From Mesostigma viride (Eukaryota; Streptophyta; Mesostigmatophyceae; Mesostigmatales; Mesostigmataceae): a DNA stretch of 64,000 bases. This document shows positions 5,019 through 28,626 of this stretch, piece after piece; position 1 is the stretch's first letter, and every line of letters begins with the position of its first letter. A model generated the notes under the pieces. It saw nothing but the letters and a program-made list of their open reading frames with translations. It had not been told where the DNA came from and ran no database searches. The translations under genes and the position numbers were made by a program. The stretch covers positions 1,223,176 through 1,287,175 of the forward strand of contig RPFO01000114.1 of the NCBI GenBank assembly GCA_009746045.1, given 5' to 3'.

Positions 5019-6414
5019 TGCGCCCCACTAGCGAAGTCTCAAACAATGCCTTGATCCCCCGCGGATAGGAGAGATCAGCGTCCAACCAAAGGTACGGTCA
5101 ATCAATCCCCCACACCTTTCCCCCCTCCTCGTCCAGCGAAAATAGCTGGCACGTCTGCCAACTTCCACCCTACACCATCCTCCTCGCGCTCCTCATGCCA
5201 TAACTGTCACGATCCAGTGCTATGGCCCAGCGACTCGCCAAAAGTCACATGCCACAAGCTGCCGCTACGGTCACAACCCTCTGTTTGCAGGGCGTAACCC
5301 GGGGTGCAAGCATCCCCAGGTACTCGCCCTAGAGGGCTGCCGGCGGCATACATAGCAAGGTGTAATCTCCATTCCATTCTCAGGACAGCTAGCCGGTCAC
5401 TTAGGCTATCTTGAGCAAGCGCCCCTGCTCTTAGCCCTCACAACCGTCAAAACCAGCCGGTCTCACCAGGCTCCCCCCATTGCCTGCCCACCTCTTGGAT
5501 GCCATTACAGATGTCATCCCAAAGCTCTCAGGGTACTAGCCTGGCAGCGCCCAAAAGTCTTTTTACGTAGGCCGCTCATTTTGCCTCCCCCCAGTTCCAA
5601 AACACCACAGTCCTTAGCTCCCCAAAGCCGTCAAGAAAGGCACCTCCCCCAACCGGCCACCACTGGCCCAAGGCCGCCGAGCCGCCCTACCACCACGTAA
5701 GCCCTCGAGAAATAAAATCCAGGGAGCCACACCCAGCGCTCCTCCAGCCACCGGTTTTCCCCATAAAATTCGGCTCCACATATTCTTTTTCACGTTACCA
5801 TCACGTAATGGACCAGCCGACCCGCTCCTTCAAAGCCATCGGGCTGTGACGCGGTATGCCCTGCCCGCAAAGCCCCGAGAGCCAAAGGTAGCTAATGATG
5901 CCGCATTCAGATCTTGGGCAGCCGGCATTGCAGCCTACTATATTTTTTACACTGCTCGTCGTTGAGGGTCATCACGCAAGGCAGTATCAAACGTAAAACA
6001 GCTCGAACAAGCACGCCCAGGGCCGAAATAAAATTTTCGTTCCCTTACCGCACTTTCCGGCCTTGCGACTCAATTTCGGGTCAAAATTTCTATGCCCACC
6101 CCTCAAACGACGGGACAGCAGCCGGCCACCTTTGCTCGTCGTTTAGGACCATCGTAACAGGTCCAAGCAACCTTTATTCGCCTCGTCCCAGGTCAGTTAA
6201 GGCCGAAAAAGTTTGCCGGCACCCTACCACAGATTTCGGCACTAAATCCGCAATTTCTGCCCCGATTTTCAACGACTGGCCCTCAAACGACCGCTTGGAC
6301 GCCGACCACCGTCGCGCGTCTCTAAATAAAATTCATTCCCAGCCCCCCCGGACTCGGGGAGGCCTTTTGCATTCATTTAAATCATTGCCAGCCACCATGG
6401 CTGGCCGTCACCAC

Positions 6415-7124: not shown

Positions 7125-8507
7125 AGGCTGGCCGTTGGGCGGCGTGGGCAGCTCCATCTCCTTGGAGCCTAGCGCTTGCAGCCATTTTTGACACGCCAGC
7201 TTTTCGGACCAGTCCTCCACTTCGCCGGCGAACTCCATGAGGCGCTCGTAAGATTGCCCCGGGGTTTCACCCTCGGCTATCTTGAAACTGCGCCATTCAC
7301 GCTCTGCCTTGATGGTCTCCACCGGGTATTCCTGGCGAAGGAGGTCCCACAGTTCCTCAGCAGGGTCGACACCATACATGATGTTGTAGTCGGGCTGGCC
7401 ACGCCCGTCGAAGCCGAACCACACGTCCGTGTGACGCGTGTACAGCGAGACCTCTCTCCAGTGCTCCACCAGCCTAGCCACTCGCCTCAGCGTAAGGCCG
7501 TGAAAGAAGAAATGCATGTTGTTCATCACAAACTCATGCATTACAGCGCCTTGCGTAGTCATGTATTGCAGATCAATCCATGACTTGTACGCGTTGTAGG
7601 CCTGCGCCAGCGTGGCCAGATTGCCGGTTGTGGAGAACTTCTCGCGCATGTCCACCCGTGGTAGGGTGGGCATCTTCGCGCCTTCAGGTATGAGGCGCAC
7701 CCTTTGCGGGTACTGCACCCCATCGGCATCCTCCGGCGGTCGCTGAGCTGCGCGTCCCTGCGCCAGCGTGCTTGGGCGTGCTGCCTCCCGTACTCGGAAA
7801 GCCAGCGGCGTGGTTATGTCCTCCATGGGCGGAATGCGCCCGATTGGCACACTTGACCATCGTGCAGTCGACCCGCCGGTCAGCGCCCCACCGCCTCGCC
7901 CAAACGGAATTGAGACCCCGCCTGGCAGCATGCGTCCTGGTGCACCCCTGCGTGGGTCCATCGCGCGCGCTAGCCCTGCCCCGTTCTCCTCGTGCAATCC
8001 GTCTCGCGCTTGATCGAAAGGCAGGCGCCTGGGCGCCAGCGTATACTCGCCCCGTGGCTGACCATCCGCCTCACCAAGCAAGTCGTGTTGGGTTAGCGAC
8101 CCAGCCAAACCCCCCGGTTCCATCGAAGCCCTTCCCGCCGCATTACCTGAGGTTGGCGGCTGGTCCCGCTCCCTCGGCTCCGCGGTAACACCATTGGGGC
8201 CCGGCATCGATGCCTGCCCGTCCCATGGTGTGGACTGCAGATGACGACCCTCTACGGCCACCAATCTGTCGGTCACTTCCCGCATTTGCAGCGCCAGCTG
8301 CTGCTGCAACTGTTGCGACTGTTGCTGCATCTGCGCTTGCATCTGCGCGAACAGCGCCGCCATACTCAGCGGCGCTTCTTGGTCGCGACTCCCACCCACT
8401 GCGGGTACGGCGGGGGGAATCCCGCCATTCGACCCCGGAGCGGACGTGTTGGCATCTGCTCTATTTGCATCCGCCATGGCTCGAGTCTGCGCTCGCGTCA
8501 GTGGCAT
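7125..8507 (-). pseudogene. Gypsy (element H) gag, N-terminal part
   Basis: Minus-strand frame from an ATG at 8507 (MPLTRAQTR; the longer frame to 8534 uses a TTG) down to the C1 insertion at 7125. It begins with a Gln-rich coiled stretch (QMQAQMQQQSQQLQQQ). A helical, Trp-rich region follows, resembling the retrotransposon Gag capsid domain; AEREWRSFKIAEGETPGQSY is the region around its conserved Trp/Phe. The frame is open throughout but is cut by C1, and its remainder is at 275-1. Role: structural Gag of an LTR retrotransposon. It is oriented the same way as the pol fragment at 17063-19750, but lies on that fragment's 3' side. Confidence 0.7.
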
Positions 8508-9636
8508 GCACCAGCTGACCGATGGGCAAAACAAGAACCAACAAGCCTAGGTTAGCCTGCCAGAAAAAGACAAGAGCCAGCAAATTCTGGCTAGTTCTAT
8601 TTTCTTAAAATCTGTCTCAAGACACTTCCTTTACAAACTGTCAGCCAGGCCGTTCCCTGTACTGCTGATGGTTGATAAACACTAAAGCCAACGTCTTGGC
8701 TTCGAACAGAAGGAAGCAGACTACCGGGTAGTCTCTTCGAGTAACGAAAGGAGGGCTCTCAGCCGAGGACAAGGAACTGTCCCTCGTGCCTGATGACCAC
8801 CTTATTGCCTCCCCTGCTATAGAAGAATGCTTTCACAACACACACTTTGCACAGTCTGATGATGAAGCCGCACATGCGGAATTTATTGAGAAAGTTAATA
8901 CAATTACAACACGTTGATAGTCTCAATATCGATGCACTCCATGCTCACGAGCCCGCAGTTAGGCAGCGCTCCATGACATGCTACCGGCCTTGCTCCCAAG
9001 GAAAGGGAGAAACACGAAGGCCACTAACGAGAGACTCGAAGAGACTACACGCTACGTGAGAGTCCTCTTCGACTATGAACCAAACCATTCGTCATGCCAC
9101 ACGCATGACACACGCCACACTTGTCAGTCCAGCCAGGAATGCCCAAACTATCTTGCTGTCTGAACCATGCAAATAGAAACTGCATTCCAGTTGCCGTCCT
9201 GGCTTTCTACCACACATGCCAACAAAAGCAGGAAGGCATCCCGACAAATCTAAATTGCTACCCTGTTGCCGATCTCATCTCCTAGAGGCTCCGGCATTTC
9301 TGTCCCTGGGAATGTCCGGCATTGAGTCACGACCACCAAGGTCGAAGCATAATATCCTTCAAACAATCTGCACGCTCACACCTTGCGTGTGAGTGGCCCA
9401 GCAAACATTGCTTCTAATCTTTCCTTTCTAGAAGAAATCCCTTTATAGGGCTGCCAGCGATTTCGCATTCATTCCAGCGATCTGGCTCCGCACCGCAAAT
9501 TTTCCTTTTCCATTTTCTGTCCAGTCCTCATAACGTTGACCCGCTATTCTACACCACAAAGACACCTGGCCTGTCAATAGCCTCGGCGCTGTTGAAGTCC
9601 AGCAGTCCAGCTCCAGCTCCAGCTCCAGCTCCAGCT
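8508..9636 (-). other. Element H 5' leader and probable LTR portion
   Basis: About 1.1 kb without a supported gene, upstream of gag on the minus strand. A TATAAAG lies on the minus strand at 9441-9447, flanked by CCC...GGG, and is the best promoter candidate. With 16738-17062 (rejoined when element A is removed) this forms about 1.45 kb between a pol stop and a gag start, the expected place of an LTR plus leader. A possible LTR with TGTCA...TGACA ends (17008 to about 8643) can be drawn, but there is no second copy to prove it. A (CCAGCT)n tract lies at 9607-9638. Confidence 0.4.
9441..9447 (-). promoter_or_regulatory. TATA-box candidate for element H
   Basis: TATAAAG on the minus strand, about 930 bp upstream of the gag ATG and inside the probable LTR. 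Position and sequence fit a pol II LTR promoter; nothing else supports it. Confidence 0.4.
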
Positions 9637-9789
9637 CCTCTGTGCATGCTTTCAGGTTCACTTTGTTTGAGAAGGCACCAGAACTTGTTTATTGCAAAAT
9701 TATATGCTTAAGCCGCTTGCAGGCCTTGGTAGACCGAGAGACTGGCAAATTGTGCGCAAGTCCCAGGCGGCTGCCACCATATAACACCC
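9637..9789 (-). repeat. B2 repeat of element A
   Basis: Near-identical direct repeat of 10315-10467. It contains CACCAGAACTTGTTTATT, which is also found (reverse-complemented) in the B repeats of element B, so the two families share an ancestral B repeat. Confidence 0.85.
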
Positions 9790-9838
9790 CCAGAGACAAC
9801 AAACAAACAAACAAACAAAAGAGGGTGGGTGGGTGGGG
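9790..9838 (-). other. A2/B2 spacer with G4 motif, element A
   Basis: The plus strand reads GGGTGGGTGGGTGGGG at 9823-9838, next to (CAAA)n at 9797-9820 and a C4 run at the B2 side. The same layout (C-run, CCCACCC repeats, T-rich, G-run in coding sense) is found at 29348-29382 in element B. Confidence 0.75.
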
Positions 9839-10314
9839 AAAACTGATAAAGCATGCGCCGCCATGTCTTCCTCAATAAATTGGCTGCATTGCATGCGCAC
9901 GGTGACGAATGCAAGTCCGGTACAGTACTGGCGCGGCGCCCAGGTGCCACTGACCAGTTGTACTACAAAGAACCCACTTGTACTGATTCTTTCGACATTG
10001 TACTACGTTTAGTCACTGTCTACTTCAACCCAGGTGGTCATACCACCTCCTAGGCAGGTTGTGCTACACCTGAACGAATCTTTACTAGCCTGAGCTAGTT
10101 TGAACTAGTTTGAAGTAGATTGTACTACCCTGTAGTACCAATGAAGTACTTTGAACTACATCCAAGTACTTGGAAACAGTCCAGAGGTCATTTGCAGGGA
10201 CTTTCACCCTTTCCAGGAGCATTTCTCGCAGATCAGCCATGAGGCAGCGGCACCGACTCGCACTCCGCTCCCCTTAGTCGCAAATCAGGGAATCCAGATC
10301 GTAAGATCAACCAT
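9839..10314 (-). repeat. A2 repeat of element A
   Basis: Near-identical to A1 at 16261-16737. The inner part contains TAGTTTGAA iterons around 10090-10170. The outer end carries GATCGTAAGATC, the palindromic terminal block shared with element B. Confidence 0.85.
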
Positions 10315-10467
10315 CCTCTGTGCATGCTTTCAGGTTCACTTTGTTTGAGAAGGCACCAGAACTTGTTTATTGCAAAATTATATGCTTAAGCCGCTTGCAG
10401 GCCTTGGTAGACCGAGAGACTGGCAAATTGTGCGCAAGTCCCAGGCGGCTGCCACCATATAACACCC
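10315..10467 (-). repeat. B1 repeat of element A
   Basis: Direct repeat of B2. It adjoins A2 so that the two outer element ends are fused. Confidence 0.85.
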
Positions 10468-10522
10468 GCATCTCCAACCTGGCCGTCCCCGGCCGCATCT
10501 GGAGTGGTTGTAGAGGGGGAAG

Positions 10523-10542
10523 CCCTAGCGTGGCTGCTAGAG
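10523..10542 (-). other. Conserved YR-element stem-loop, element A copy 3
   Basis: Coding sense CTCTAGC - AGCCAC - GCTAGGG, 7-bp stem with one G-U pair, 6-nt loop. Confidence 0.65.
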
Positions 10543-10582
10543 TGCGCCTCCCCTGCACCTGTCAACGCAGGTACCCGCAGAG

Positions 10583-10602
10583 CCCTAGTGTATCCACTAG
10601 AG
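10583..10602 (-). other. Conserved YR-element stem-loop, element A copy 2
   Basis: Coding sense CTCTAGT - GGATAC - ACTAGGG. The loop-closing pair is changed from C-G to T-A on both sides relative to the other copies. Confidence 0.65.
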
Positions 10603-10695
10603 TGCGCCCCGCCGGCTCTGTCCAAGGCAGGATACGGTCGAAGGTGAGCCAAACTGGAAATCAGGATGATGGCGCGACGCCCAAAACCAGCAGGG

Positions 10696-10715
10696 CCCCA
10701 GCGTGTCCGCTGGAG
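10696..10715 (-). other. Conserved YR-element stem-loop, element A copy 1
   Basis: Coding sense CTCCAGC - GGACAC - GCTGGGG. The fourth stem pair is C-G instead of T-A. Confidence 0.65.
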
Positions 10716-10803
10716 TGCGCCCTGCCGACTCCTCCAACGGAGCTGCATCGTTTTATACTGCGCCCCCCCGGCCTAGTCCGGGGTAGGCGCATCCCCACAC
10801 TGG

Positions 10804-13460
10804 CTACTGCCAGTGTGAACTCCACTGAGCGGGGGGGAAATCCTCAGCCAGCAACCACACCCACCGCGGCACTTGCACCGCTAGAGCACGGTGCAGGCCC
10901 ACGTAGTGGTCCACCGACTTGAACTGGCGCCAACGCCCGCGCTTCTGGATGTCTGGGAGTGAAACGCCCTGCAGGTAGTCGTACGTTGCCCCACCATGTC
11001 GCATGGAGTAGGGCGGAAACATCCCCCGCAGGCCCAGAACATCCCACGCCGCGTGCCACCGACGAGAGAACTGGCTGTAGTTGAGGCTCCCAAACAAGGG
11101 CTCCTCGGGCTCCCGCCCAGCGCACAGGCGCTCGAGCACGTACAGCGAGAGGGGGTCCTGCACCACCACCGCCTGTGCACCCCCCTTGGCTGTCTTGGGA
11201 TCCCGCAGAAGAAGCGCGCCCAGGCCTCGCTGCCCCAGGCGACGGTCGCCGCGCAGCGCCACGTCCCCCACTCGGAGCTTGAAGGCCTCCCCGATGCGCA
11301 GGTATTGCTGGAAAGTGATGACGCACACGGCTGCTGCCATGGGCGCCCCCTGCCAGCGGAGGATCTGCACCACCAGGTAGAGCAGCTCCCACGGCACCGG
11401 ATTGGGGCTATGGGTTTGCACGCGTCGCTGCCACCCGTACAGGAGTCGGCGGGCCTCGCGCCACCCCTGCACTTGGCTGGGGTAGTACAGTTGCAGCCCA
11501 CACAGCGCCCTCATGCACATGGAACGCCCTGCTCCCCCTCCATCCTCGTAGACAGACACGAGCCACTCGCAGAACACGCTCTCCGCTTCCTCCGGCGGTA
11601 CAGCACCATAGGGCTCAGCCCAAAGAAGGTACGCGATCACTGCGCGATGGTAGCTGCGCAGGGTCGCGGGCAGCACGGTGCTCTCCAGTAGCTCCTGCCG
11701 CCCTCCCGGCCCCGGGTTACTCTCCACATCGCCATCGGCGGTAAGGTCCCGCACCCACCGGCCCCGGCTGGGCGCGTCCGCGGGGTTTCGCTCCGAGCGG
11801 ATGTACACCCAGTGGTACCTGGTGTTGCTGGCACAGCCCAGGGCGGCAGCGCGGCGGCACCACGTGTTGAGGCGGTAAGATGATGACCGCCCCTTCACCA
11901 GTGCGCCCAGAACGGCGGAGCTATCCACCAGCCGTACGTGCCGTCGCCCCCACCGGGCCCGCGTGCGCAGCCCCCACTCCAGGCTCTGCACGGCTGCGCG
12001 CGCCTCTTTCTCATTGATGTGCGCACCCGCGTCCCTCCACCGGTGTTTCACCGCCACACGCCAGCGGGCGGTCGCCACCGCCCGATGTTCCCTCTCCCCC
12101 GTTCGCTCCACACCGACCTCTTCCGACCCGACACACAGAGTCTTCCACCCCTTCATCTCACGGCAGTTGGACAAAGCTTTCACGTCTGCCTCTGCCAGAC
12201 GGGCGTACACCACACCGGAGCCCCGGCTCGACGCGTCACTGGCCACGACGGTGGTGTCCAGCGGCTGGTTGCGCTGCGCATGCACCAGGGGAGCCAGGCA
12301 GACAGCCGCCCAGAGCTCCCGGCGCACACTTGCCCAGAGTTGGAAGCGTCCTCCCTTGCGGAGGGCCAGCACTTGGTGGAGCATCCTGTAGGCATGGAAC
12401 CAGATGCTTAGCAGACTCCTGCGAAGCAGTTGGATCCATACCCAGCGTCCCAGTAGGGAGGCCAGCTCATGGTAGCTTGCTCGTCCCCGGGCCAGCACCG
12501 CCTCAGTGTCATGGACGAGGAGGGCTAGTCGCTTCGCTGACGGCCACAAGCTCCCATCTTGGTGAAACTCGATGCCCAGGATCTCCACAGCTTGGCCCTC
12601 CCGCGCCCGCTCGACCTTTTTCTCATTCACCACCAGGCCAGCTGGCGCGTAGCACTCAGTGCATGCGCGGTCCAGCAGCGCGTTCGCCTCCGCTGCGCTG
12701 CGCGCGTGTGTGGTGCCCAGATCGTCGATCATGACCAACTGCGCCGGCCGAGGAGGGTCCTCGGGCAGCAGCTGCCAGTCAAGCTCGGCGGCCCCCACCA
12801 ACTCCATCCACTCCCGTCCTCCCTCACGCACTGTGCGCACCCCGAGCTGATGCATCGGGACGCTCACACTCAGCCCGGGGTTCAGCTTCCCCGGCCCGAA
12901 CAGGGTCTGCATGTGCGCCACCTGCGCCAGCAGGACCGAGTGGGACCACCCCATCACCAGAACACGGAACCTGGGATAGAGCCGGCGGCGCTCCCCTGGT
13001 TGGCCGACCTCGTCTGACCAGACTGGGGGCAGCGCGAACCACTTCCGCCACTCCGTTGGCACAGAGAAGCGGTAGTAGTACGTCTCCAGGTCCGTTTTAC
13101 TCGAGTAGCTGGGCGCGCCCCCGGCCATCTCGGCCACCGCCCCCACATCTGGCAGGTAACAGCTGCCAGGGGTGAGGAACTTGTCGTTGCTCTGCACCAT
13201 GTTGCAGATGAGTCGCTGGCGCTGGGCTGACGGGTCCACCACCCCTGGATCGCGCTTGGGCACGCCGAACAGGCCGTTGGTGACCGGTGGTTCCTCCTCG
13301 CTATACTCTGTCATCCCGGTCTCCGCCAGCCGCACGCTCAGGCGCGCGTACTCCGTGTCGCTCGCACAGCCATGCGTTACTCGCCGTCGACGCCCTGGCT
13401 GCGCTGCCTCTTCCCTCAAAATATTTTTTATATTGCCATATACCTCCCTCCACTGGGGGG
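10804..13460 (-). CDS. YR retrotransposon polyprotein: RT - RNase H - 2A - tyrosine recombinase (element A)
   Basis: Numbering is from the TTG at 13419 (871 codons to the stop); the frame is open upstream to about 13460, so the true start lies earlier. RT: catalytic MIDD at residues 230-233. RNase H: ASDASSRGSG, INEKEAR, LVDSSAV and NPADAPS supply the D-E-D-D residues. A 2A peptide, GDVESNPGP, has its G570/P571 scission point at 11710/11709. Tyrosine recombinase: Arg708 (YLRIGEAF), Arg807-His808 (MRHGGAT) and nucleophile Tyr839 (DHYVGLH). The protein copies element RNA to DNA and integrates it by site-specific-type recombination. 2A would release the recombinase as a separate protein. A G7 run near 13456-13462 shifts the frame relative to the N-terminal part; this may be a sequencing error. 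Confidence 0.9.
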
Positions 13461-13900
13461 GAGGCAGTCCATCAGCGGCACGCTGCCCGCCACTCCGCCC
13501 GCGGGCAGCGCAAGTCTCTCCGGGGCAATTATTTCATATTGCCCGTCGGGCCCATAGGGCCCAGACTCAACGTCATGCACCAGGTCCTCTGCCGCTACGG
13601 CTCTCAGCCGGCGCTCATGGACCTGGGCGGCAATCTCCAGCCCTTGTAGGGCCGCCTGCTGGGCCGCAGTGCAGGGGGTCACTAAGGACACCCCGCTGGT
13701 ACCGCAACCCGCGGGCTCCTGGGCAACAGGTGCGGGCAAAGCCATCCGCATGCCACCGACAGGACCCGTTTCAGGCGGTTCCTGTGCTCCCTCCACAACC
13801 AGTTGAGGCCATCCACGATTCGCGCGCTGCGCAGGAGCAGGGCCCGCCGCCGCATGGCCCGCTGATACCTACGTCGGGACCGTAGGCGCGCGCGGTCGAG
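13461..13900 (-). CDS. N-terminal region of element A pol, in shifted frames
   Basis: Read on the minus strand, this holds a basic segment (RSRRRYQRAMRRR, then GLNWLWREHRNRL) followed by a segment containing YGPDGQYEIIAPERLALP and ending MDCLPP. The same order is found in element B at 25500-25900 (GLNWLWGRTRERS, then YGPGGQYEIIDPERLALP, then LDCLPE). It is therefore the conserved N-terminal extension of pol rather than a separate gene. No known domain was recognised. The frame changes at about 13690 and at the G-run near 13456-13462. Confidence 0.6.
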
Positions 13901-13944
13901 GGGCTTGATGGCCACCTCTGGGAGGGGGAATACACCTCGCCCTC

Positions 13945-14751
13945 TCACTTCTTCTGGGAAGAGCCCGCCACTCCTCCCTCCGCCTTGTCCTCCTTTCCTC
14001 GCGCCGACGCCAACGCATCGCGCTCCTTCTTGTGTGCCCGCAGCGCTCGTCGAGCCGCCCGCGTGCGGACACCCCCTGCCGGCCGGTAGGGCAGCATGTA
14101 CCCGGACGCGTTCCAAGACCCGCTGGTCTCCACCAGCAGGAGAGCCTCCACGCAGAGCGCCAGGTACTCCACGCCCGCCAGCTCGCTGCACACGTTGGGA
14201 CTGAGCTCCTTGTTGAGCGTATCCCAGACGTGGCACAGGTTCTGGGCCAGCTCCATCCTCTCCTTGGATGCCCACCCAAGTCCCGTCCCCTCCTTCTGCT
14301 GGCGCAGCACGGGGGCCCTTTGCACGTTCAGCCAGGCCACCATGTTGCCGTTGTGGCCCTGTATGGCGGTCTCCATGTGCTTGGGGGCCGTGCGCTGGTG
14401 GTACTTGTGGTCTTCCACGTCCCACACCACGCTGAGCGCCCGCCCCGCCGGCAGGTACTCGAGCAGGTTGACCCCGCGGGTAACTGGCAGGTCGGTCAAC
14501 CTCCCACCTGTGCCCCGGCCACCCGCGCGCCCTCGCCCGCTCCCCTCCGAGTCGCTGCTCGTGCTGTCGCTGGACGTGCACCGGCAGTGCCGATGCCCGC
14601 ACTCGCGGCACTTGGACCGCTTGCTCTCCCGTTTCCTCTGCCCACCTTGGGCTGCTGCGAACGCCATGTGGTACGGGGTTCCAGCCGCTGGCACCCAGGT
14701 ACCGTACGCGGTACCCGCTGGTGGGTAGGGCTGAGGCCAGGCTGCACCCAT
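13945..14751 (-). CDS. Gag-like protein, C-terminal part (element A)
   Basis: Start set at the ATG at 14751; the frame is open further upstream from a GTG and the real start is uncertain because of a G9 run near 14868. Features in order: a Pro/Tyr/Gly-rich N terminus, a short Cys/His cluster (CRECGHRHCRC), a Ser/Asp-rich linker, then a conserved helical region (NLCHVWDTLN, VCSELAGVEYLALCVEALLLVE). That helical region aligns with the C-terminal half of element B Gag (NLTYILDVAI, VTELACFEYLARVVEAFLMVE). The C terminus is Lys/Arg/Ala-rich. Role: RNA-binding structural protein. It lies between ORF1 and pol. Confidence 0.65.
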   Translation of the reverse strand: MGAAWPQPYPPAGTAYGTWVPAAGTPYHMAFAAAQGGQRKRESKRSKCRECGHRHCRCTSSDSTSSDSEGSGRGRAGGRGTGGRLTDLPVTRGVNLLEYLPAGRALSVVWDVEDHKYHQRTAPKHMETAIQGHNGNMVAWLNVQRAPVLRQQKEGTGLGWASKERMELAQNLCHVWDTLNKELSPNVCSELAGVEYLALCVEALLLVETSGSWNASGYMLPYRPAGGVRTRAARRALRAHKKERDALASARGKEDKAEGGVAGSSQKK

Positions 14752-14793
14752 CTGCCCTGGGTAAGCGTACGCTGGGCCCTGCGTTCTTTCCAC

Positions 14794-15152
14794 GCCTGTC
14801 GGTGTGCCCGGGTACCCATGGGGCCCGCTTGTCCACCCGGCAGGGCTGGGCCCTGCTGCCCCCGCCCCCCCCCATGCGCCCCCTCACTACAATACGGTTC
14901 TTAGGAGACGCGAAATGAGTGAGAATGTTACCCGAGCTGTACCGAGGATTCGCACCGTTGATTCAACAATTGTTGGTTCGTTTTGCGCCATTTGGCGAGC
15001 ATCGACTGGAGCCTGAACCTAGCGGGGGGAATCATGCGGGGGAATCTTGCGAGAGAATCTTGCGGGGAAATTTTCCGAACGTGACTTTAGCGAAGTCCTA
15101 CTACATTTTGACTGGCTACACGGTACTACATTTCCGTTACTGAAAATTTTCT
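14794..15152 (-). other. Gap between ORF1 and the gag-like ORF of element A
   Basis: About 360 bp with G-rich (14850-14880) and AT-rich parts and no supported gene. In element B the equivalent Gag is a single frame, so this could be an intron or an insertion that splits gag here; no clear splice pair was established. Confidence 0.35.
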
Positions 15153-16169
15153 CTAGTTGCGTTTGTGGATCGTGCGTTCCGCTGAAATTTTCGTGTTCAG
15201 TGACCAGATCACAATTTGATCCTGGCGCAAAATGATTGGCTGTACGGTACCAACCAAAAACGAAATTTTAGTATCTAAGTTCCGCAGCACTTGCTGAATT
15301 TGCTCCGGAAGCCCGGGGGCACTTTCCCCGCTGAAAAAGGTGTCCGCGGAAGCGTATTGTAGTGCTTCCTGCACGCTGGGTGCTGGCACCCGTACTGCGG
15401 CTCCCAACCCCTGGGCGCCGCCAATCCCCAGCTGTTGGAAGCCCCCCATGAGGGCATTCATCTGCGCCATCATTTCGGGGCTCAGTCCCATTCCGGCCGC
15501 CCCGTCCCCCTTGGCACTGCGCGGGAGACCTGCTTTCTCCTCCTTGCCTCCCCCGCGCGCGCCCGCTTTTAAAGTGCCTGAGCGTGGCACTGCAGACACC
15601 CCCTCGCCTCCCCCAAAACTAGCGCCAGCCGCGTTTGCCAAGCTCCTCCCTGCATTTGCAAGCTGTTTCCTGCCATCCCCTCCGACGACAGGCGCCATAT
15701 GACCAAAAACGGTGGGAAAAACGGCACCTGGTGCGCCAGCAACTGTGCTAGCACCTGGGGGGCGAAATCCCTGCGCCTGCTCCTCTTTGGCCCCCGCCAA
15801 AGCTTCCCCGACATCAGTGTCCTCCTCTGAGGAGTCCCCGTTCGGTTCCTCATCGTTTGTAATGCCTGTTGTACCTTGTGCTAACATTTTCGCCACCTTG
15901 GCTGAAATATTTTGCGCCAGCTCCTCACGAGTGTCATACCCATTGATTTCAAACCCAAAGATCCGAAGCTTTTCTGCCAAACTTCGTAACTTGTTTTCCG
16001 AGCTACGCAACAATATTTTAGGGTATTCAGAGCCGAGTTCTGCCGCTATAAAATAGGCGACAGCTGAGGCGTTCCTGCCATGGTTCACATAGATTTCCTC
16101 CACACGACTCGCAAATCCGCGCGGTAAATCCCCCGTCTCGCTAGCGTTTTCATCCCCGCTAGCCATCAT
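15153..16169 (-). CDS. ORF1 (Gag N-terminal-like), element A
   Basis: 338 codons from tandem ATGs at 16169/16166. The N-terminal about 120 residues are helical (VEEIYVNHGRNASAVAYF, LLRSSENKLRSLAEKLRIFG). They match in spacing, not closely in sequence, the N-terminal region of element B Gag (LTEYLGPNWAQRL, SEGRLTSLGQFLKTAG). An acidic stretch (NGDSSEEDTD) and a Gly/Ala-rich low-complexity region follow. No catalytic motif is present. It is the first coding frame after A1, so it is probably the N-terminal Gag segment. Product function is not otherwise recognised. Confidence 0.6.
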   Translation of the reverse strand: MMASGDENASETGDLPRGFASRVEEIYVNHGRNASAVAYFIAAELGSEYPKILLRSSENKLRSLAEKLRIFGFEINGYDTREELAQNISAKVAKMLAQGTTGITNDEEPNGDSSEEDTDVGEALAGAKEEQAQGFRPPGASTVAGAPGAVFPTVFGHMAPVVGGDGRKQLANAGRSLANAAGASFGGGEGVSAVPRSGTLKAGARGGGKEEKAGLPRSAKGDGAAGMGLSPEMMAQMNALMGGFQQLGIGGAQGLGAAVRVPAPSVQEALQYASADTFFSGESAPGLPEQIQQVLRNLDTKISFLVGTVQPIILRQDQIVIWSLNTKISAERTIHKRN

Positions 16170-16260
16170 ATTCGTAAAGAGGAAGTCGTTAGCTTTAAAA
16201 CGGATCTATTCCGAGGTAAAACGGCCAAAAGATGGCTTAGAAAACCGAAAAACGAATTTG

Positions 16261-16737
16261 AAAACTGATAAAGCATGCGCCGCCATGTCTTCCTCAATAA
16301 ATTGGCTGCATTGCATGCGCACGGTGACGAATGCAAGTCCGGTACAGTACTGGCGCGGCGCCCAGGTGCCACTGACCAGTTGTACTACAAAGAACCCACT
16401 TGTACTGATTCTTTCGACATTGTACTACGTTTAGTCACTGTCTACTTCAACCCAGGTGGTCATACCACCTCCTAGGCAGGTTGTGCTACACCTGAACGAA
16501 TCTTTACTAGCCTGAGCTAGTTTGAACTAGTTTGAAGTAGATTGTACTACCCTGTAGTACCAATGAAGTACTTTGAACTACATCCAAGTACTTGGAAACA
16601 GTCCAGAGGTCATTTTCAGGGACTTTCACCCTTTCCAGGAGCATTTCTCGCAGATCAGCCATGAGGCAGCGGCACCGACTCGCACTCCGCTCCCCTTAGT
16701 CGCAAATCAGGGAATCCAGATCGTAAGATCAACCATC
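16261..16737 (-). repeat. A1 terminal repeat of element A
   Basis: Direct repeat of 9839-10314. Its outer end at 16737 is followed by CAGCTCCAGCT, matching the (CCAGCT)n flank at the other end of the element. Confidence 0.85.
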
Positions 16738-17062
16738 CAGCTCCAGCTGTCCACTAACTCGCGTATGATCCTCTCGACGCTGCGCACTTGTGCTGCCGTC
16801 CGCTCAAGTACGTCAGTGCTGCGCGCCCAGCCGTGCCTGGCCCGGCGCGCGCGCACGTGCACTTTCGTCCGCTCTTATGCTGCAAGTGCTAGTGTCCCCC
16901 CCCCGGTCACTAGCCTTTGTCGAAAATGCGCAGAAAACAAATTCCTTGCGCACGTCACCGGTATTGTGCATAGTGGGCGCCCGGATGACATAGCTCGCGT
17001 CCGTGACAGCTGTCGCGTCTGCGTACCACAATCTCCGGCGCCACCATGGCGGCTGGCCATGC
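16738..17062 (-). other. Element H sequence downstream of pol (probable LTR start)
   Basis: 325 bp between element A and the pol stop. No gene is supported. Removing element A rejoins it to 9636. The part 17011-17062 belongs to a segment duplicated at 19917 onward. Confidence 0.4.
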
Positions 17063-17143
17063 TCAGCTTTGGTAAAACCCAAATGAGCTGAGCTGACGTG
17101 CCTGCCTTAACTGCATGCCCGGTGGGGTGGGCGAGGACCTGTC
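17011..17143. repeat. Direct repeat of the H pol 3' end, copy 1
   Basis: Near-identical to 19917-20056 in the same orientation (the second copy has one extra GGGTG unit). It covers the last about 27 codons of pol and 52 bp beyond the stop. Confidence 0.8.
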
Positions 17144-19750
17144 CCATGATTCCCCCCCTCGCTGGCTCTCATGGCTCCTCACATGGCCATGCAGCGACCG
17201 TGCCAACACCACAGCAGCTAAGGAAATGGTGACGCTACTGGTTGCGAAACGGGCAGCGACACAAACTGGGCAAAACCACTGGCCCGCTGGCACGGTGGTG
17301 AGCGCTGGCTGCAAGCAGTGCATGTGCCACCCACAATTACAGTGATCACACAGCAACATGGTATCCCCCTGGTCTACGCGATGGCAAACCTGACACTGTG
17401 CGTCCTTGACCCGCCTGGCCGTGTGCGGGGCGAGGTCAGGCAATAAGTTGGGCAACGAACACGGACTGAGGTTGCTTACGTTATCGGTGGTGCGACTGCC
17501 GTCGACGCCCTCCAGAATGGCGACCCCAGATGGCTTGATGGCGACGATCCGCAAGATGGTCGGCCCCGCAGTCACGTCAAGAGTGTCGGTCAGCTGCGTG
17601 CGGAGAAATACGAACTGCCCCGGACGAAAATGCAGCTGACGGGCCATGTAAGCGCCCCCCCGGCGCTGAGCGTAGCGCAGGGTATCTCGGTGCTGGGCGA
17701 TGAACAAGTTGTTCATGGCGATGGGCATAACCTTGCGGAAAGTAGCCGCCCGTGCGGTCACCTCAGCCAGAAACTGACTGGCGTTGTCAAACGCCATAGG
17801 GGTGGGGTGTGCACTCTGCGCCTCCGTGGGGAGCAAGGGTGCGCGCCCAAACAACAGGAAATACGGGGAGAAACAGGCGAGCGACTCCCAGTCCTCCTGG
17901 GGTGACATTCGGTAACCCATGGCTATCCACGCCAGTTCACGATCCCACATAGTGAATGATGCTGACTGCAGGCTCCACTTGCGCAAAGCCTGCTTGACAG
18001 TCTGAACCAATCTCTCAGCCAAACCATTGGCCTGAGGATGCTCCCGAGAAGTGCGACGGTGATCAATGAGACATGCATCCAACAATTCCTGAAATTCCCC
18101 CCGAAACTCCCCGCCCTGGTCGGTGACCACCTCCGCGAGGGCGCCAAACCTGGCGATGATGTCGGCGAAGTGCTTGGCGGTGGTGGCGGCCTGCTTGTCA
18201 GCAATGGGGATGAGCTCGACCCACTTGCTAAAACTTTCGACACACACCATGACATACTTGTGGCCATCTGCACTTTCATCAAAGGGCCCACACAGGTCTA
18301 CGTGCCAGCGGTAGAAGAGCCCTCTGATGGGTAGGCTCATCAATTCTTTTGCATCGTGGTCCACATTGAACCGGGCCTTCACCCGGGCACACTGCGCGCA
18401 GCGAGCAACGACCTGCGCGACTGTGGCACGCATGCCGTTCCACCAATAAGAGGCGCGCACTAGCGCCAAAGTGCGGTTACCACCCAGGTGGCCATACCGC
18501 TCATGGGCTTGCTGGACGATGGCGACCCGCTTGTGAGGCGGCGGCACCACCACTTTGCGCTTGCCGATCATTTTGTGGAGGACCCCGGCATCCCACGAGT
18601 AGGTGACCGCCCTATGTTGCACCCTATTCAACTCAGCGTCACGCTGGGCTGAGGACCAATCAACCGGGGTGGGGGTGAGAGCTATCCCTTGGAACTGCTC
18701 CAACACACGCCCATCGAGCCACACATCACCCATGTTGCATTCCACTGTGAGATGGCCAACCAACACCACCTGGAGTGCTAGGTATCGTGCCAAGGTATTG
18801 TCAATGTCAAAGGACGGAGAATTACCTTCCTCCAACGCGAGGAGGCCAGCGGCAGGGGTGAAGGGAGAAGGGTGAACTGCATTGCAGCTTGCCGCAAAGT
18901 CTGCGACTGTATACTCGACTGCGCGCCAGTCTGCCTCGGCGTCGGCGTCAGCGAAGCCTGCAGCATTAACAAAAACCACAGACCCAGGCGAGCTCTCGGC
19001 CCCTAGGGCCCGCGCACCAGTGTTGTCAACAGTGGTTGGTAGAGCATACCTGGACAGGACGTCCGCGTTGGAGTGATCCACACCTGGCCGATGGACGATT
19101 GTCAGGTGGTACTCCTGAATGATCATTGCCCACCGGGCCAGCTTACCCGTGAGTTTGTCGCTGGTCATCAACCACAATAAGGGCTGGTGATCAGTGACAA
19201 GTGTGAACACCCGCCCAAAGAGATATGGCCTGAAGTGCTTGATGGCCCACACAACGGCTAACGCTTCCCCCTCGTAGGAAGAGTACCGACTCTCGGCAGA
19301 GTTGTTACTCCGACTAGCGTACGCGATAACATGCTCGCGCCCCGCATTGTCCTTTTGTGCTAGCACAGCCCCTAGGCCTACCTTGGACCAATCGGTGTAA
19401 AGAATGAAGGGCAGAGCATAGTCGGGGGCGCGTAGGATAGGAGCGGCAGTCAGTTCCTGTTTGATGGTATCGATGGCTCGCTGCTGAGCCGGACCCCACG
19501 CCCAGACATTGCCCTTCTTCAACAACTCAGTCAGGGGTTTGACTTTGGTGCTGAAATTCTGAATATATCCTCGATAATAGCCAGCTAGCCCGAGATACGC
19601 GCGCACCCCCGAGATGTCGATGGGCACTGCGGCGTTGCTGATGGCTTCCACTTTGGCTGCCTCAGGGGTCCGGCCACCTGGTACAATCTGATGACCAAGA
19701 AACCCTATGGTCTGTTGGGCGAACTTGCACTTTTCAGGGTGCAGCCGCAG
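17063..19750 (-). pseudogene. Gypsy pol 3' half: RT end - RNase H - integrase - PHD finger (element H)
   Basis: The frame is open from about 19757 (LRLHPEKCKFAQQTIGFLGH, the RT thumb/connection) to a stop at 17063; no true start exists because the gene is broken here. RNase H: ILYTDWSKVG, YEGEALAVVWA, VTDHQPLLWL. Integrase zinc finger: HERYGH with CAQC. Integrase core: WHVDLCGPF, VVTDQGGEF and NGLAERLVQ supply the D-D-E triad. Chromovirus-like Gypsy elements often end in a chromodomain. Here the C terminus carries instead a complete C4HC3 PHD finger (17261-17395: CQVC, CDHC, HMHC, CPVC), a histone-tail reader fold. The matching RT N-terminal half lies on the other strand at 20057-21245. Confidence 0.9.
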
Positions 19751-19756
19751 GTAGCC

Positions 19757-19915
19757 TGGCAGCGCCCAAAAGTCTTTTTACGTAGGCCGCTCATTTTGCC
19801 TCCCCCCAGTTCCAAAACACCACAGTCCTTAGCTCCCCAAAGCCGTCAAGAAAGGCACCTCCCCCAACCGGCCACCACTGGCCCTAGGCCGCCGAGCCGC
19901 CCTACCACCACGTAA
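19757..19915. repeat. C-element internal fragment in the broken Gypsy
   Basis: 159 bp nearly identical to 5542-5700 of C1, same orientation on the plus strand and opposite to the rest of C2. It lies exactly at the point where the Gypsy pol changes strand. Confidence 0.75.
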
Positions 19916-19916
19916 T

Positions 19917-20056
19917 GTCGCGTCTGCGTACCACAATCTCCGGCGCCACCATGGCGGCTGGCCATGCTCAGCTTTGGTAAAACCCAAATGAGCTGAGCTG
20001 ACGTGCCTGCCTTAACTGCATGCCCGGTGGGGTGGGGTGGGCGAGGACCTGTCCCA
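19917..20056. repeat. Direct repeat of the H pol 3' end, copy 2
   Basis: Second copy of 17011-17143. It encodes, on the minus strand, the last residues of pol and abuts the plus-strand methyltransferase/RT fragment. Confidence 0.8.
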
Positions 20057-21245
20057 GCAGCTGCAGGACCAGCCACTAGCGTATCTTTTTGAGAACGTGG
20101 TGGCTGACGACAGCCCTCACGAGGTAGTGAGGAAGGACTGGGCCCAGATCGTGGACATCTTAGGGGCACCAGTCACGTGCGACAATGCAGGATTGGGCGG
20201 GCTCACCCACAGGTACCGCGCATTCTGGACCAACCTTGCACTCACCACCACCATCCAGGCAGTGGTAGATGCGATCACACGACAGCACGGCGGCACTGGG
20301 TCGCCATGGAGATCGCGGCTGCTTCAACTATGGAGCGTTATCCTCATGACGTCCTTGTTGTCCAGCACGGTGTTCGCTGGAGCGCCCACCCTGCAGCAAT
20401 CGGTCGGTCGCGCAGTCCGTGCCATTCAGCAGGTGAGCGTCACACCCGGTGTAGCCGCATTTTCCCTTTTCCACGATGCCGCTGTCCGGGGGCCTTGTCT
20501 CGACAGTAGGAGTGCCGCAGTCGCAGATCCTGCTGCCTCTCACATATGGGCCATAGGTGAGCACCTCACCGCCACGCAACGCAAGGCTATGGAGCACTGG
20601 TTGCATTCTGCACGCTCAGTATTCGCTTTCAGCAGTGAAGAACTAGGGTGCTACAACGGGGGCTGCATGGGGGTCCCACTAGATACGGATCAGCCCTTAT
20701 TCAGGCGGCAGCATAGGCTGAGCTTGGCTGAGCTGGAATTCGTAGATGCTAACTGTCGAGAGCTAGAGGCAGCTGGGATCATCCGCGCTTCATCCTCCAG
20801 TTATGCAGCTGCCACGGTGGTCGCACCCAAGAAGGATACCATCACAGTCGAGTGGACAGGAATGCGCATGGCCACTGACCTGCGTCAGCTGAACGCGCAC
20901 ACTCCTGTTGATAGGTACCCCATGCCTCGGGTCGATGATGTTTTGGATAAAATATCTCCCCAGGTCAAGTATGTGTCGTCGCTAGATTTGCGTAGCGGCT
21001 TCCATCAGATCAAGGTCGTAGAGGCAGATCAGCGCAAGCTGGCCTTTTGGGGTGGGACCCGTCTGTACGAGTGGGTTCGCATGCCATTCGGACATCGCAA
21101 CGCTAGTGCGGTGTTCCAACGTGCCATGGACCAGGTGCTGGCAGGGTTGCCATTTGCAGCCTGCTACATAGACGATGTCATTGTCTTTAGCGAGACATTT
21201 GACCAGCACTTAGCTCACCTCGATCAGGTTCGGATCGCCCTAGAT
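20057..21245 (+). pseudogene. Gypsy pol 5' half: DNMT3-like cytosine methyltransferase end - RT (element H)
   Basis: One open plus-strand frame. Residues at 20079-20260 match the second half of a C5 DNA methyltransferase of DNMT3 type. LFENVVA (ENV at 20091-20099) is motif VI. The segment 20169-20243, with GAPVTCDNAG, THRYRAFWTNLA, matches the motif VIII region of DNMT3 enzymes. LLQLWSVILM around 20320-20345 may correspond to motif X. Motifs I and IV (SAM binding, PCQ) are missing because the frame is cut at 20056. A Gypsy RT follows: AAATVVAPKKD, MATDLRQLN, SSLDLRSGFHQI, then catalytic YIDDVIVFS (21165-21191). The frame then breaks into C2 sequence after HLAHLDQV. In an intact element this would be a methyltransferase-RT fusion acting on element DNA or RNA-DNA copies in the nucleus. 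Confidence 0.8.
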
Positions 21246-21750
21246 TGGCCTTATCTACCTGCGCAGGTATCCAAGAGGTGGCAATTTTAATGGGGGGAGC
21301 CTGGTGAGACCGGCTGGTTTTGACGGTTGTGAGGGCTAAGAGCAGGGGCGCTTGCTCAAGATAGCCTAAGTGACCGGCTAGCTGTCCTGAGAATGGAATG
21401 GAGATTACACCTTGCTATGTATGCCGCCGGCAGCCCTCTAGGGCGAGTACCTGGGGATGCTTGCACCCCGGGTTACGCCCTGCAAACAGAGGGCTGTGAC
21501 CGTAGCGGCAGCTTGTGGCATGTGACTTTTGGCGAGTCGCTGGGCATAGCACTGGATCGTGACAGTTATGGCATGAGGAGCGCGAGGAGGATGGTGTAGG
21601 GTGGAAGTTGGCAGACGTGCCAGCTATTTTCGCTGGACGAGGAGGGGGGAAAGGTGTGGGGGATTGATTGACCGTACCTTTGGTTGGACGCTGTTCTCTC
21701 CTATCCAAGGGGGATCAAGGCATTGTTTGAGACTTCGCTAGTGGGGCGCA

Positions 21751-26087: not shown

Positions 26088-26518
26088 ACGGCTGTTTTGC
26101 CGTCCCCAAGAAAGACCCCGGGGTTGTGGAGCCCAGCGAACGACGGCAGCGGTTTATAGGGAATATGGTGCCGTGCAACCGGCGCTTCCTCAAGCCGCCT
26201 ACCTGTTACCTGCCTAACTTGGGCGAGGTCGCTGAGCTGAGTGTGGGGGCGCCATGCTATTCGGGCAAGACAGACCTTGACACCTACTATTACCGGTTCG
26301 AGGTACCTGAGAGCTGGCGCCCCTATTTCTCGCTGCCCCCCGTGTGGTCCGATGAGGTCGGCCAGCTGGGACGACGGCGAAAGTTGTACCCCAGGTTCCG
26401 GGTCCTTGTCATGGGCTGGAGCCACTCGGTGGTCCTTGCACAGGTTGCCCACCTGCACTGTCTCTACGGGGCGGGGTGCTCGATGCCAAGAGAGGGCTGT
26501 CATATCCCATGCACTTGA
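26081..26518 (+). CDS. Element B pol, RT fingers region (frame 2)
   Basis: Begins NGCFAVPKKDPGVVEPS and contains GKTDLDTYYYRF, LPPVWSDEVGQLG and FRVLVMGWSHSVVLAQVAH, matching the RT of element A (NGLFGVPKRDPGVVDPS, KTDLETYYYRF). The frame is lost about 26475, where the next frame takes over. Two small indels thus disrupt pol of this copy unless recoding occurs. Confidence 0.7.
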   Translation: MVNGCFAVPKKDPGVVEPSERRQRFIGNMVPCNRRFLKPPTCYLPNLGEVAELSVGAPCYSGKTDLDTYYYRFEVPESWRPYFSLPPVWSDEVGQLGRRRKLYPRFRVLVMGWSHSVVLAQVAHLHCLYGAGCSMPREGCHIPCT

Positions 26519-28626
26519 TGGGGGTGCGCACAGTGCGCGGGGATGGCATGGACCGGCTGGAGTTGGTGGAGAGCGCAGCCAGTGCAGCGTGGCGGCTGCT
26601 GCCGGAGGATCCCCCACATCCCGCTCAGCTGGTCATGATCGATGATCTGGGGGTCACCCATGGGCGGAGCGCGGAGGAGACCAACGCCGTGCTCACCAAG
26701 GCGTGCGAGGAGAGCTACGGTCCCAAGGGGTTGGTGGTCAACGAGAAGAAGGTGGAGAGAGCTGAGGAGGGGCGCCCGGTGGAAATCTTGGGGATTGAGT
26801 TCTGCCAGGACGGGTCCATGCGGCCGAGCGCGGCCCGGATGGCGGCCTTGGTGCGCGACACGCAGGCAATGCTGGGGCGTGGACGGGCCACTTACCACCA
26901 ACTGGCCTCGTTGCTGGGACGGTGGGTGTGGGTCCACTTGCTGCGTCGGGGTCTACTGTCCATCTGGTTTCACGCCTACCGCTTGCTGCAGCAAGTCCTG
27001 GTGCACAAGCGGGGCTGGAGCTATCGGCTGTGGGGTAGTGTAAGGGAAGAGCTCCAGGCTGCAATGGACTTGGCCCCGCTGGTGCATGCGCAGCGCGACC
27101 AGCCCCTGAGCTGCACCGTGGTGGCCACTGATGCGTCAACCCACGGTTCTGGGGTGGTGTACAGCCGGTGGGAGGCGCCTGCGGTGCGTGGCCTGTCCAA
27201 CTGTCGGGAGCGGAAGGGCTGGAAGACGCTCTGTGTGGACTCTGAGACGGCCAGCGTGGAGCGCACAGGGGAGATTGAGCACCGAGCCATGGCAGCGGCG
27301 CAGTGGCGCACCGCTCTTGCCCACCGGTGGCTCGATCCCTCGGCCCACATCAACGAGAAGGAGATTCGTGCGGCTGTGCAAGGGATCGAGTGGGGCCTGC
27401 GCTCACAGGTTCACTGGCAGCAACGTCACGTGCGGCTGGTGGACAATTCGGCAGTTGTCGGTGCGCTCGTCAAAGGGCGTTCGTCGTCCTACCGGCTGAA
27501 CGCCTGGTGCCGCCGGGCGATCGCGCTAGGGCTGGCCAGCAACACCCGCTACCACTGGGTGTATGTGAGGTCGGAGCGCAACCCGGCCGACGCGCCCAGT
27601 CGTGGTCGATGGGTGCGCAACCTCACTGCGGATGGCGACGTGGAGAGCAATCCGGGGCCACATGGGCGGCAGGAATTGCTGGAGGCCACTGTGCAGCCCA
27701 GCACGCTAGCTGCATATCACCGAGCGCTGAGGGCGTACGTGGAGTATGGTCAACCCCTCGCTCCCGTGGCCAAGACGGAGGCGGAAGGCGTCTTTTGTGA
27801 GTGGCTGGTCAGCGTGTATGAGGAAGGGGGAAGCCGGACCATGGTTGTGCGCGCATTATGCGGGCTGCAGCTGTACTTCCCCAACGAGATTAAGGGGTGG
27901 TACGAGGCGCGTCGCTTGCTGGCCGGCTGGGCGCGACGAGTTCCCGTGCAGAGCCCTCACCCCGTCCCGTGGCAGCTACTGTACCTCGTGGCAAACATTC
28001 TTCGTGCACAAGGCTCGATATTAGCTGCCTGCTGCTGCATCATTGTTTTTCAGCAATACTTGCGCATCGGAGAAGCGTTCAAGCTTCGCGTGGGGGACGT
28101 GGCTCTGCGCGGGGACTTCCGCCTGGGGCCCAGTAACCAGGGTGCGCTGCTGCTACGCGACCCCAAGACAGCCAAGGGCCAGGCCCAGGCAGTGGTGGTT
28201 GTTGAGCCCCTTTCACTCACGTTGCTTGGCGCCCTGTGTGCTGGGCGGGCGCACGAGGAGCTGCTCTTTGGCGCACTCAGCTACAGCCGTTTCTTGCGGC
28301 GGTGGCACGCCGCCTGGGACCTCCTTGGCTTGCGGGGGATGTTTTCACCCTACAGCATGCGCCACGGGGGGGCCACCCATGACTACCTGCGCGGGGTACC
28401 AATCGCGGACATCCAAAAGCGTGGCCGGTGGCGCCAGTTTTCGTCCGTGGACCATTACGTGGGGCTCCACCGCGCCCTGCAGGTGCGGGTGCCCCAGGTG
28501 GTGTGGGACCTCGCGGGCAGACTGCCCCCCGTGACTGGCGTCGTCACTTTGGGCCGTAGATTTCGGCCATACTTCGGTGAGGCGCACTCTAGCGGACACG
28601 CTAGGGCTTCACCAGCTGGAGGGTAA
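26476..28626 (+). CDS. Element B pol: RT palm - RNase H - 2A - tyrosine recombinase (frame 3)
   Basis: 716 codons. RT catalytic MIDD at residues 54-57. RNase H motifs: ATDASTHGSG, INEKEIRAAV, LVDNSAV, NPADAPS. 2A motif GDVESNPGP with G394/P395 scission (27655-27660). Tyrosine recombinase: YLRIGEAFKLR, MRHGGATHDYL, GRWRQF, and nucleophile Tyr661 in DHYVGLH. It is homologous to element A pol throughout. The conservation of the 2A motif in both families, while its flank downstream (HGRQELLEAT versus GGRQELLEST) varies, argues for function. Confidence 0.9.
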   Translation: MLDAKRGLSYPMHLMGVRTVRGDGMDRLELVESAASAAWRLLPEDPPHPAQLVMIDDLGVTHGRSAEETNAVLTKACEESYGPKGLVVNEKKVERAEEGRPVEILGIEFCQDGSMRPSAARMAALVRDTQAMLGRGRATYHQLASLLGRWVWVHLLRRGLLSIWFHAYRLLQQVLVHKRGWSYRLWGSVREELQAAMDLAPLVHAQRDQPLSCTVVATDASTHGSGVVYSRWEAPAVRGLSNCRERKGWKTLCVDSETASVERTGEIEHRAMAAAQWRTALAHRWLDPSAHINEKEIRAAVQGIEWGLRSQVHWQQRHVRLVDNSAVVGALVKGRSSSYRLNAWCRRAIALGLASNTRYHWVYVRSERNPADAPSRGRWVRNLTADGDVESNPGPHGRQELLEATVQPSTLAAYHRALRAYVEYGQPLAPVAKTEAEGVFCEWLVSVYEEGGSRTMVVRALCGLQLYFPNEIKGWYEARRLLAGWARRVPVQSPHPVPWQLLYLVANILRAQGSILAACCCIIVFQQYLRIGEAFKLRVGDVALRGDFRLGPSNQGALLLRDPKTAKGQAQAVVVVEPLSLTLLGALCAGRAHEELLFGALSYSRFLRRWHAAWDLLGLRGMFSPYSMRHGGATHDYLRGVPIADIQKRGRWRQFSSVDHYVGLHRALQVRVPQVVWDLAGRLPPVTGVVTLGRRFRPYFGEAHSSGHARASPAGG
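28587..28606 (+). other. Conserved YR-element stem-loop, element B
   Basis: CTCTAGC - GGACAC - GCTAGGG, preceded by GGCGCA and lying inside the last codons of pol. Confidence 0.65.

Follow-up and report, generated by a model that had tools for sequence, protein, structure and literature searches.

The 64,000-nt stretch of DNA analysed here (the window) contains a dead copy, of a family that we call A, of a Ty3/Gypsy-type retrotransposon whose Pol polyprotein includes a DNMT3-class methyltransferase (MTase), and the reading that we favour, as reasonably probable, is that this putative enzyme acts on the element's own DNA. Unbroken copies elsewhere in the genome carry the MTase in frame with RT, RNase H and a DDE integrase, have TG/CA-type ends and 4-bp target duplications and, judged from their sequences, have amplified recently.

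Results

An MTase half fused to a Gypsy RT

An open plus-strand frame of 424 aa (20016-21287) joins the C-terminal half of an MTase to a Gypsy RT. Its RT part matches Pfam RVT_1 (E 2.1e-19, aa 271-409) and holds YIDD at 21165-21176; upstream, motif VI (FENV) lies at 20088-20099 and motif VIII (HRYRAFWTN) at 20208-20234. An earlier, sequence-only reading had called these three motifs and proposed a Gypsy polymerase fused to a DNMT3-like MTase at 20057..21245. All three were located, and the coordinates were good, family A DNA spanning 20055 to 21245 (Table 1).

That reading had staked its case on an MTase profile match to 20079-20260, which the public libraries did not give: Pfam DNA_methylase was absent from the list at E<=10 for the frame 20016-21287, NCBIfam returned no family for it at E<=1, phmmer against the PDB with the window fragment found no match, and a protein search with frame residues 17-100 gave none (44 candidates). 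An HMM built from 11 Closterium MTase domains, with the window sequence left out, did find it: among 1320 window frames, 20016-21287 scored 38.8 bits (E 3.8e-11), the runner-up having an E of 0.16. With the RVT_1 match, this upholds the proposed fusion. Close copies in the same genome hold the whole MTase domain, with Pfam matches of 40.8-42.1 bits against a cut-off of 22 (three frames).

The best profile and fold match of the MTase is the DNMT3A / DNMT3B catalytic domain. Its predicted fold is DNMT3-like, with 16-20% identity in structural alignments against DNMT3A / DNMT3B, and its motifs run in the canonical order I-IV-VI-VIII-IX-X, without the DRM rearrangement (in the L015 frame, I at aa 551, IV at 642, VI at 687, VIII at 727, IX at about 830 and X at 852). 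By profile and predicted fold the MTase is nearest to DNMT3, as the earlier reading had it, and a DRM origin was rejected on the weaker profile match and the canonical motif order. The PDB search listed 52 sequences at E<=1, none of them a DNMT1, DNMT2 or CMT chain. For the database proteins P0035, P0036 and P0045, described below, the dcm superfamily was the sole MTase that NCBIfam listed, at 22.9-33.4 bits against a cut-off of 100.65. The MTase tree orders its four groups with low support (45/11).

Motif IV reads GWECQ, not PCQ, in families A and B and in 13/13 database proteins in which it is visible. The catalytic Cys is present in all 13 and Glu replaces Pro, so the PC dipeptide is lost, and with GWECQ in this position MTase activity is not to be presumed. 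Of 18 database proteins, 15 showed the motif VI Glu and 13 the motif VIII pattern HRxRxxWxN. A loose PCQ pattern matched 28 frames, which proved to be two unrelated reading frames recurring across copies and were rejected.

The window copy is broken

The remaining half of this type of pol lies in the open minus-strand frame 19777-17063, in the orientation opposite to the MTase-RT fragment (Pfam: RT_RNaseH, E 2e-38; Integrase_H2C2, 1e-16; rve, 6e-11; PHD, 6e-9). In the family A copy L014 the counterparts of 16736-19752 (-) and 20055-21245 (+) form one continuous stretch, which indicates that the RT of the window copy has been split by an inversion. Comparison with L014 also confirmed that the N-terminal half of the MTase is missing, as had been noticed from the sequence, and revealed that a further 145 aa, between TRQH and GGTGSPWRS, are deleted, so that the target-recognition part and motifs IX-X are gone. 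Inverted, truncated and short of these residues, the window copy is dead as its sequence reads. A reading of motifs IX/X in the window spacer (about 20330-20450) was rejected because L014 and L015 place motif X in the deleted stretch.

Around the fragments, the B-repeat piece at 19916-20056 lies where the MTase fragment is cut off on its 5' side, and 19752-19915 duplicates 5537-5700 of the window. The ORF1 piece reads like the ORF1 start of L015, and another insertion breaks ORF1 at 7125. The best PDB match of the window PHD finger is BAZ2B (E 1.6e-15). A hydrophobic stretch in the MTase-RT spacer (20331-20381; WSVILMTSLLSSTVFAG in family A, WTIILMTALLTSTVLAG in family B) is kept in the L014 and L015 pol although the rest of the spacer is loose. 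Scans of the window for tRNA genes and Rfam families gave no matches, and a Pfam scan of ten further window frames gave no pointer to host genes.

Two DIRS-like elements also lie in the window, at 10804-13533 (-) and 26356-28626 (+), with Phage_integrase matches below the cut-off in the former (E 4e-4) and above it in the latter (E 6e-7). Both have a 2A-like motif, DVESNPGP, upstream of the recombinase part (11707-11730 (-) and 27637-27660 (+)).

Table 1. Features of the window copy (nucleotide positions in the window) and of family B ORF2 (amino acid positions)
Feature	Position	Strand	Basis or remark
C-terminal MTase fragment	20055..20295	+	99.2% nt vs family A copy L014; Closterium HMM E 3.8e-11
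MTase-RT spacer, then Gypsy RT N-terminal part	20288..21245	+	RVT_1; 99.7% nt vs L014
RT end, RNase H, integrase, PHD finger, B repeat, A repeat start	16736..19752	-	99.1% nt vs L014
PHD finger, integrase-frame C-terminus	17261..17395	-	PF00628 E 6.2e-9, aa 795-839 of minus frame
B repeat, family A element	17005..17151	-	98.6% over 147 nt vs one L027 B copy
Second copy of most of B repeat	19916..20056		Direct repeat of 17011-17146
A repeat start	16738..17008	-	Family B A repeat aligns to 17008-16738, resumes at 9624
A repeat, remainder past DIRS-like insertion	8739..9638	-	99.1% vs L014/L027
DIRS-like element inserted in A repeat	about 9636-16738		
ORF1 first part (gag by position), family-B-like copy	7126..8546	-	Inside 95.5% nt match to L018
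zf-CCHC	ORF2 aa 32-48		18.7 bits, cut-off 20.8
Weak protease match	ORF2 aa 310-400		E 0.1
MTase	ORF2 aa 550-860		
RVT_1	ORF2 aa 1079-1243		
RNase H	ORF2 aa 1331-1435		
Integrase H2C2	ORF2 aa 1625-1681		
rve integrase	ORF2 aa 1702-1794		
PHD	ORF2 aa 2005-2049		

Unbroken copies elsewhere in the genome

A copy search of the 440-Mb assembly (2243 contigs) scored 99 RT places, which fall into two families: family A, the window type, with at least 30 places at 88-100% identity, and family B, with at least 69 places at 75% identity (both hand counts from the search listing). At least 28 family B places (hand count) have a frame that is unbroken and exactly 2074 aa long, so the intact relatives that had been expected do exist. 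In the L015 frame motifs I and IV are present, as had been foreseen, with GWECQ in the place of the forecast PCQ. Unrelated sequence upstream of RT, named beforehand as a sign against the fusion, was not encountered: MTase sequence lay there in 39/39 places examined of the 99 (14 of family A, the window included, and 25 of family B), some of these sequences being truncated or frameshifted.

Family B has a 615-aa ORF1, gag by position and with no Pfam match, and a 2074-aa ORF2 that runs in the order CCHC, weak protease, MTase, RT, RNase H, DDE integrase and PHD finger (Table 1). The RT-RNase H-integrase order and the rve-type integrase are those of Ty3/Gypsy, and the 14 Pfam families that ORF2 matches at E<=1 do not include Phage_integrase; beside the MTase, Pfam lists no ADD or PWWP domain. 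In place of two identical terminal LTRs, the family B elements on C1646, C1391 and C111 have DIRS-like split direct repeats, A-coding-B-A-B. That on C1646 (606433-617159) consists of A1 (1138 nt), the ORFs, B1 (143), preceded by a GGGGGG tract, A2 (1140) and B2 (143). Its ends are TGTC...GACA, of TG/CA type, and its inner B1|A2 junction is GACA-GC-TGTC. Two B copies also stand at the 3' end of one family A copy.

A 4-bp target duplication flanks 8/12 copies whose ends were inspected; among the other four, C998 lacks a duplication, C133 abuts an apparent tandem neighbour, the C1646 copy lies at an assembly gap and C1469 has no ends at the forecast place. Together with the permuted repeats, the duplications suggest that a DDE-type integrase apparently inserts repeat-permuted DNA. 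Two family B copies on one strand of C111 (C111:14817 and C111:24266) lie 9449 nt apart, and the repeat regions between and beside them are 99.9% identical, as expected of a head-to-tail tandem.

Of the copies with the 2074-aa frame, 11 were compared: ten show no difference over 6222 nt and the eleventh has 4, which points, at the level of sequence, to a recent amplification of family B; where read, flanks and target duplications differ between copies, and assembly polishing may explain part of the identity. Among 12 further copies, five share one substitution and one frameshift in the MTase, a sixth has a frameshift of its own and three others are truncated within the MTase. The shared lesions suggest that copies with a broken pol have multiplied, probably in trans, and they would count against a strict need of the MTase in cis. 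Shortened family B frames also recur (1356, 861 and 1701 aa at at least 6, 4 and 3 places, respectively, by hand count), and this recurrence of length suggests that copies sharing a lesion probably multiplied with proteins supplied in trans.

Conservation of the MTase and probable methylation-type decay

Comparing one copy of each family, the MTases of A and B are 76.6% identical in amino acids, with synonymous sites saturated (pS 0.765, pN 0.17), and RT-RNase H is 84.5% identical; the neighbours of the MTase reach 36.6% (protease/linker) and 53.9% (MTase-RT spacer). By this comparison the MTase is conserved almost as strictly as RT.

Among 13 family A copies, compared as 78 non-independent pairs over the best aligned stretch of each pair, 324/527 transitions were in CpG context, against 23.7% of the C+G sites. 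Decay of the methylation (5-methylcytosine) type among these copies is the likely cause, and host enzymes may be the source of the CpG excess. The unbroken family B ORF2 is not depleted of CpG, with an observed/expected ratio of 0.82 against 0.73 for the window. The window also holds two Copia-like copies (31357-34947 and 44490-48080 (-)), 99.75% identical over 5284 nt, in which a frame of 1196 aa is open; for the copy at 31357-34947 the CpG observed/expected ratio is only 0.22, in sharp contrast to the 0.82 of the MTase-Gypsy element.

Relatives in databases

A protein search with the whole frame found 32 proteins, in three of which the upstream MTase stretch continues: the metagenome proteins P0002 and P0007 and the Closterium protein P0003. 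P0003 has motif IV, and its Pfam DNA_methylase match of 22.1 bits is just above the cut-off of 22. A search with the MTase part of P0003 gave 14 proteins: a single metagenome protein and 13 Closterium ones, among them P0003 itself. In several of the 14, one frame encodes both MTase and RT. Zinc knuckles were seen in P0042; a protease match, weak and under the cut-off, was seen in P0033-P0035, P0038 and P0042. Nine database proteins were compared with families A and B, and their MTases share 30-39% identity with those of the two families. In P0045, a metagenome protein of 950 aa, a GWECQ-type MTase sits after RNase H and not before RT, an arrangement indicating that domain order in the MTase-RT group is not fixed.

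An RT tree of 20 rows set the families of this genome, the Closterium rows and the metagenome MTase rows apart, as a single clade (100/99), from sponge, tick and other Gypsy rows; some rows of the clade are fragments without a visible MTase region, and its inner order is uncertain owing to long branches. By its nearest RT relatives the host would be a green alga. No relative was confirmed in viral contigs searched with A2, the window frame and A4 via a few peptide patterns, nor in prokaryote contigs searched with A4 via a few peptide patterns (VAGWECQ, L[LV]VAGWEC).

Discussion

Comparison with published elements

Compared by description, the element is of the kind published as KnitGypsy-Dnmt3 of the charophyte Klebsormidium nitens, which has a Dnmt3-class MTase in a Gypsy Pol ORF, Gypsy domains and DIRS-like repeats (de Mendoza et al. 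2018, PMC5890265). Recruitment of MTases into retrotransposons of dinoflagellates and a charophyte, which the sequence-only reading had mentioned, is documented by published cases (PMC5890265). According to that account, the KnitGypsy MTase is under purifying selection with key residues conserved, it gave no activity in yeast, where, as its authors caution, human DNMT3B failed too, and the K. nitens element has fewer copies than that of Symbiodinium; for SymbioDIRS-Dnmt3 of Symbiodinium, de novo CG methylation was demonstrated in yeast (PMC5890265). A 2019 opinion mentions Gypsy and DIRS elements encoding adenine and cytosine methylases in green algae, charophytes and others (PMC6338049), and a 2025 paper citing the 2018 work mentions that streptophytes and dinoflagellates have DNMT3 members within 'LTR Copia and DIRS' retrotransposons (PMC12344493). 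A literature search on K. nitens dnmt3 gypsy retrotransposons found only the 2018 paper (PMC5890265), and one on Closterium retrotransposon DNA methyltransferases found none.

The element shares with KnitGypsy-Dnmt3 the Dnmt3 in a Gypsy Pol ORF, the A-coding-B-A-B repeats and purifying selection on the MTase, and differs from it, as described, in its C-terminal PHD finger, GWECQ, 4-bp duplications and dozens of near-identical copies. SymbioDIRS-Dnmt3 likewise has Dnmt3 in Pol and A-coding-B-A-B repeats, but it has a tyrosine recombinase, whereas a DDE integrase accompanied by 4-bp duplications is seen here. Proteins of Closterium sp. (NIES-53, -54, -65) and metagenome proteins P0002, P0007 and P0045 carry a GWECQ MTase (where motif IV is present) on a related Gypsy RT; they differ in the MTase itself, at the 30-39% identity given above, and the pieces scanned for PHD mostly end before that point. 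DNMT3A / DNMT3B have the same canonical motif order, whereas here Glu stands for Pro before the catalytic Cys and Pfam lists neither of the flanking domains ADD and PWWP. GWECQ in motif IV, the PHD finger, the 4-bp duplications and the recent amplification are apparently new relative to the published elements.

Possible roles of the MTase

If the MTase acts on the element, then, being part of one polyprotein with RT, it would do so after second-strand synthesis and before integration, and methylation would serve to hide or shield the newly made DNA, or to fix its chromatin state where it has inserted. The integrase-borne PHD finger could steer insertion to chromatin of a given histone H3 state. 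As to the repeats, a linear cDNA of the form BA-coding-BA might be joined end to end into a circle, which integrase would cut at the internal B|A junction; this would account for A-coding-B-A-B repeats with TGTC...GACA ends.

The fusion could be real and maintained and the MTase nevertheless have as its main target not the DNA before integration but the chromatin of the host, or other copies, where the element inserts, perhaps helping it to settle in silent methylated regions. Such a role would fit the CpG-context decay among integrated copies and the PHD finger of the window, which matches the PHDs of BAZ2B, CHD4, WSTF, BAZ2A, KDM5-type and ATXR5 proteins; the PHDs of those proteins recognise the tail of histone H3, and in animals a PHD-like domain, ADD, guides DNMT3. 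Yet the union of MTase and RT in one polyprotein favours action within the particle, and the PHD finger sits at the far end from the MTase, on the integrase, and we consider this role unlikely. We would also give a low probability to the domain having been kept for something other than DNA methylation, with ECQ altering or abolishing C5 transfer to DNA and the domain binding nucleic acid or modifying RNA or RNA-DNA hybrids. The constancy of GWECQ, in families A and B and in every database protein with a visible motif IV, and the lack of a confirmed relative in viral/prokaryotic contigs by the patterns VAGWECQ and L[LV]VAGWEC are in line with it, but every motif IV found retains the catalytic Cys and every motif VI found its Glu, and the predicted fold is that of a DNMT3. 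The negative Pfam, NCBIfam, PDB and region searches with the window fragment would agree with 20079-20260 being no MTase, that is, a chance resemblance or a host DNMT3 fragment beside a Gypsy fragment; this is refuted, to near certainty, by the E of 3.8e-11 with the Closterium profile, by the MTase sequence in all 39 places examined and by the same fusion in Closterium and metagenome proteins.

Action on the element's own DNA is the reading we retain. A bolder version, possible though we doubt it, is that of a currently amplifying retrotransposon with its own epigenetic writer, an ECQ DNMT3 working on the element's circular or linear DNA or on RNA-DNA hybrids, and with a PHD-tipped integrase that inserts circularly permuted DNA. 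This combination of writer and reader, if true, would represent a replication route between those of DIRS and LTR elements. The 2018 cases came from dinoflagellates and one charophyte (PMC5890265), and the element poses again the puzzle of a parasite that carries its host's own silencing enzyme: why would it methylate itself? That ECQ is constant raises the question of whether the PCQ of textbooks is required, and the coexistence of permuted repeats and a DDE integrase that of how such DNA arises. Because this one genome holds many near-identical copies that appear unbroken, methylation could be measured directly on fresh copies, on extrachromosomal DNA and at target sites.
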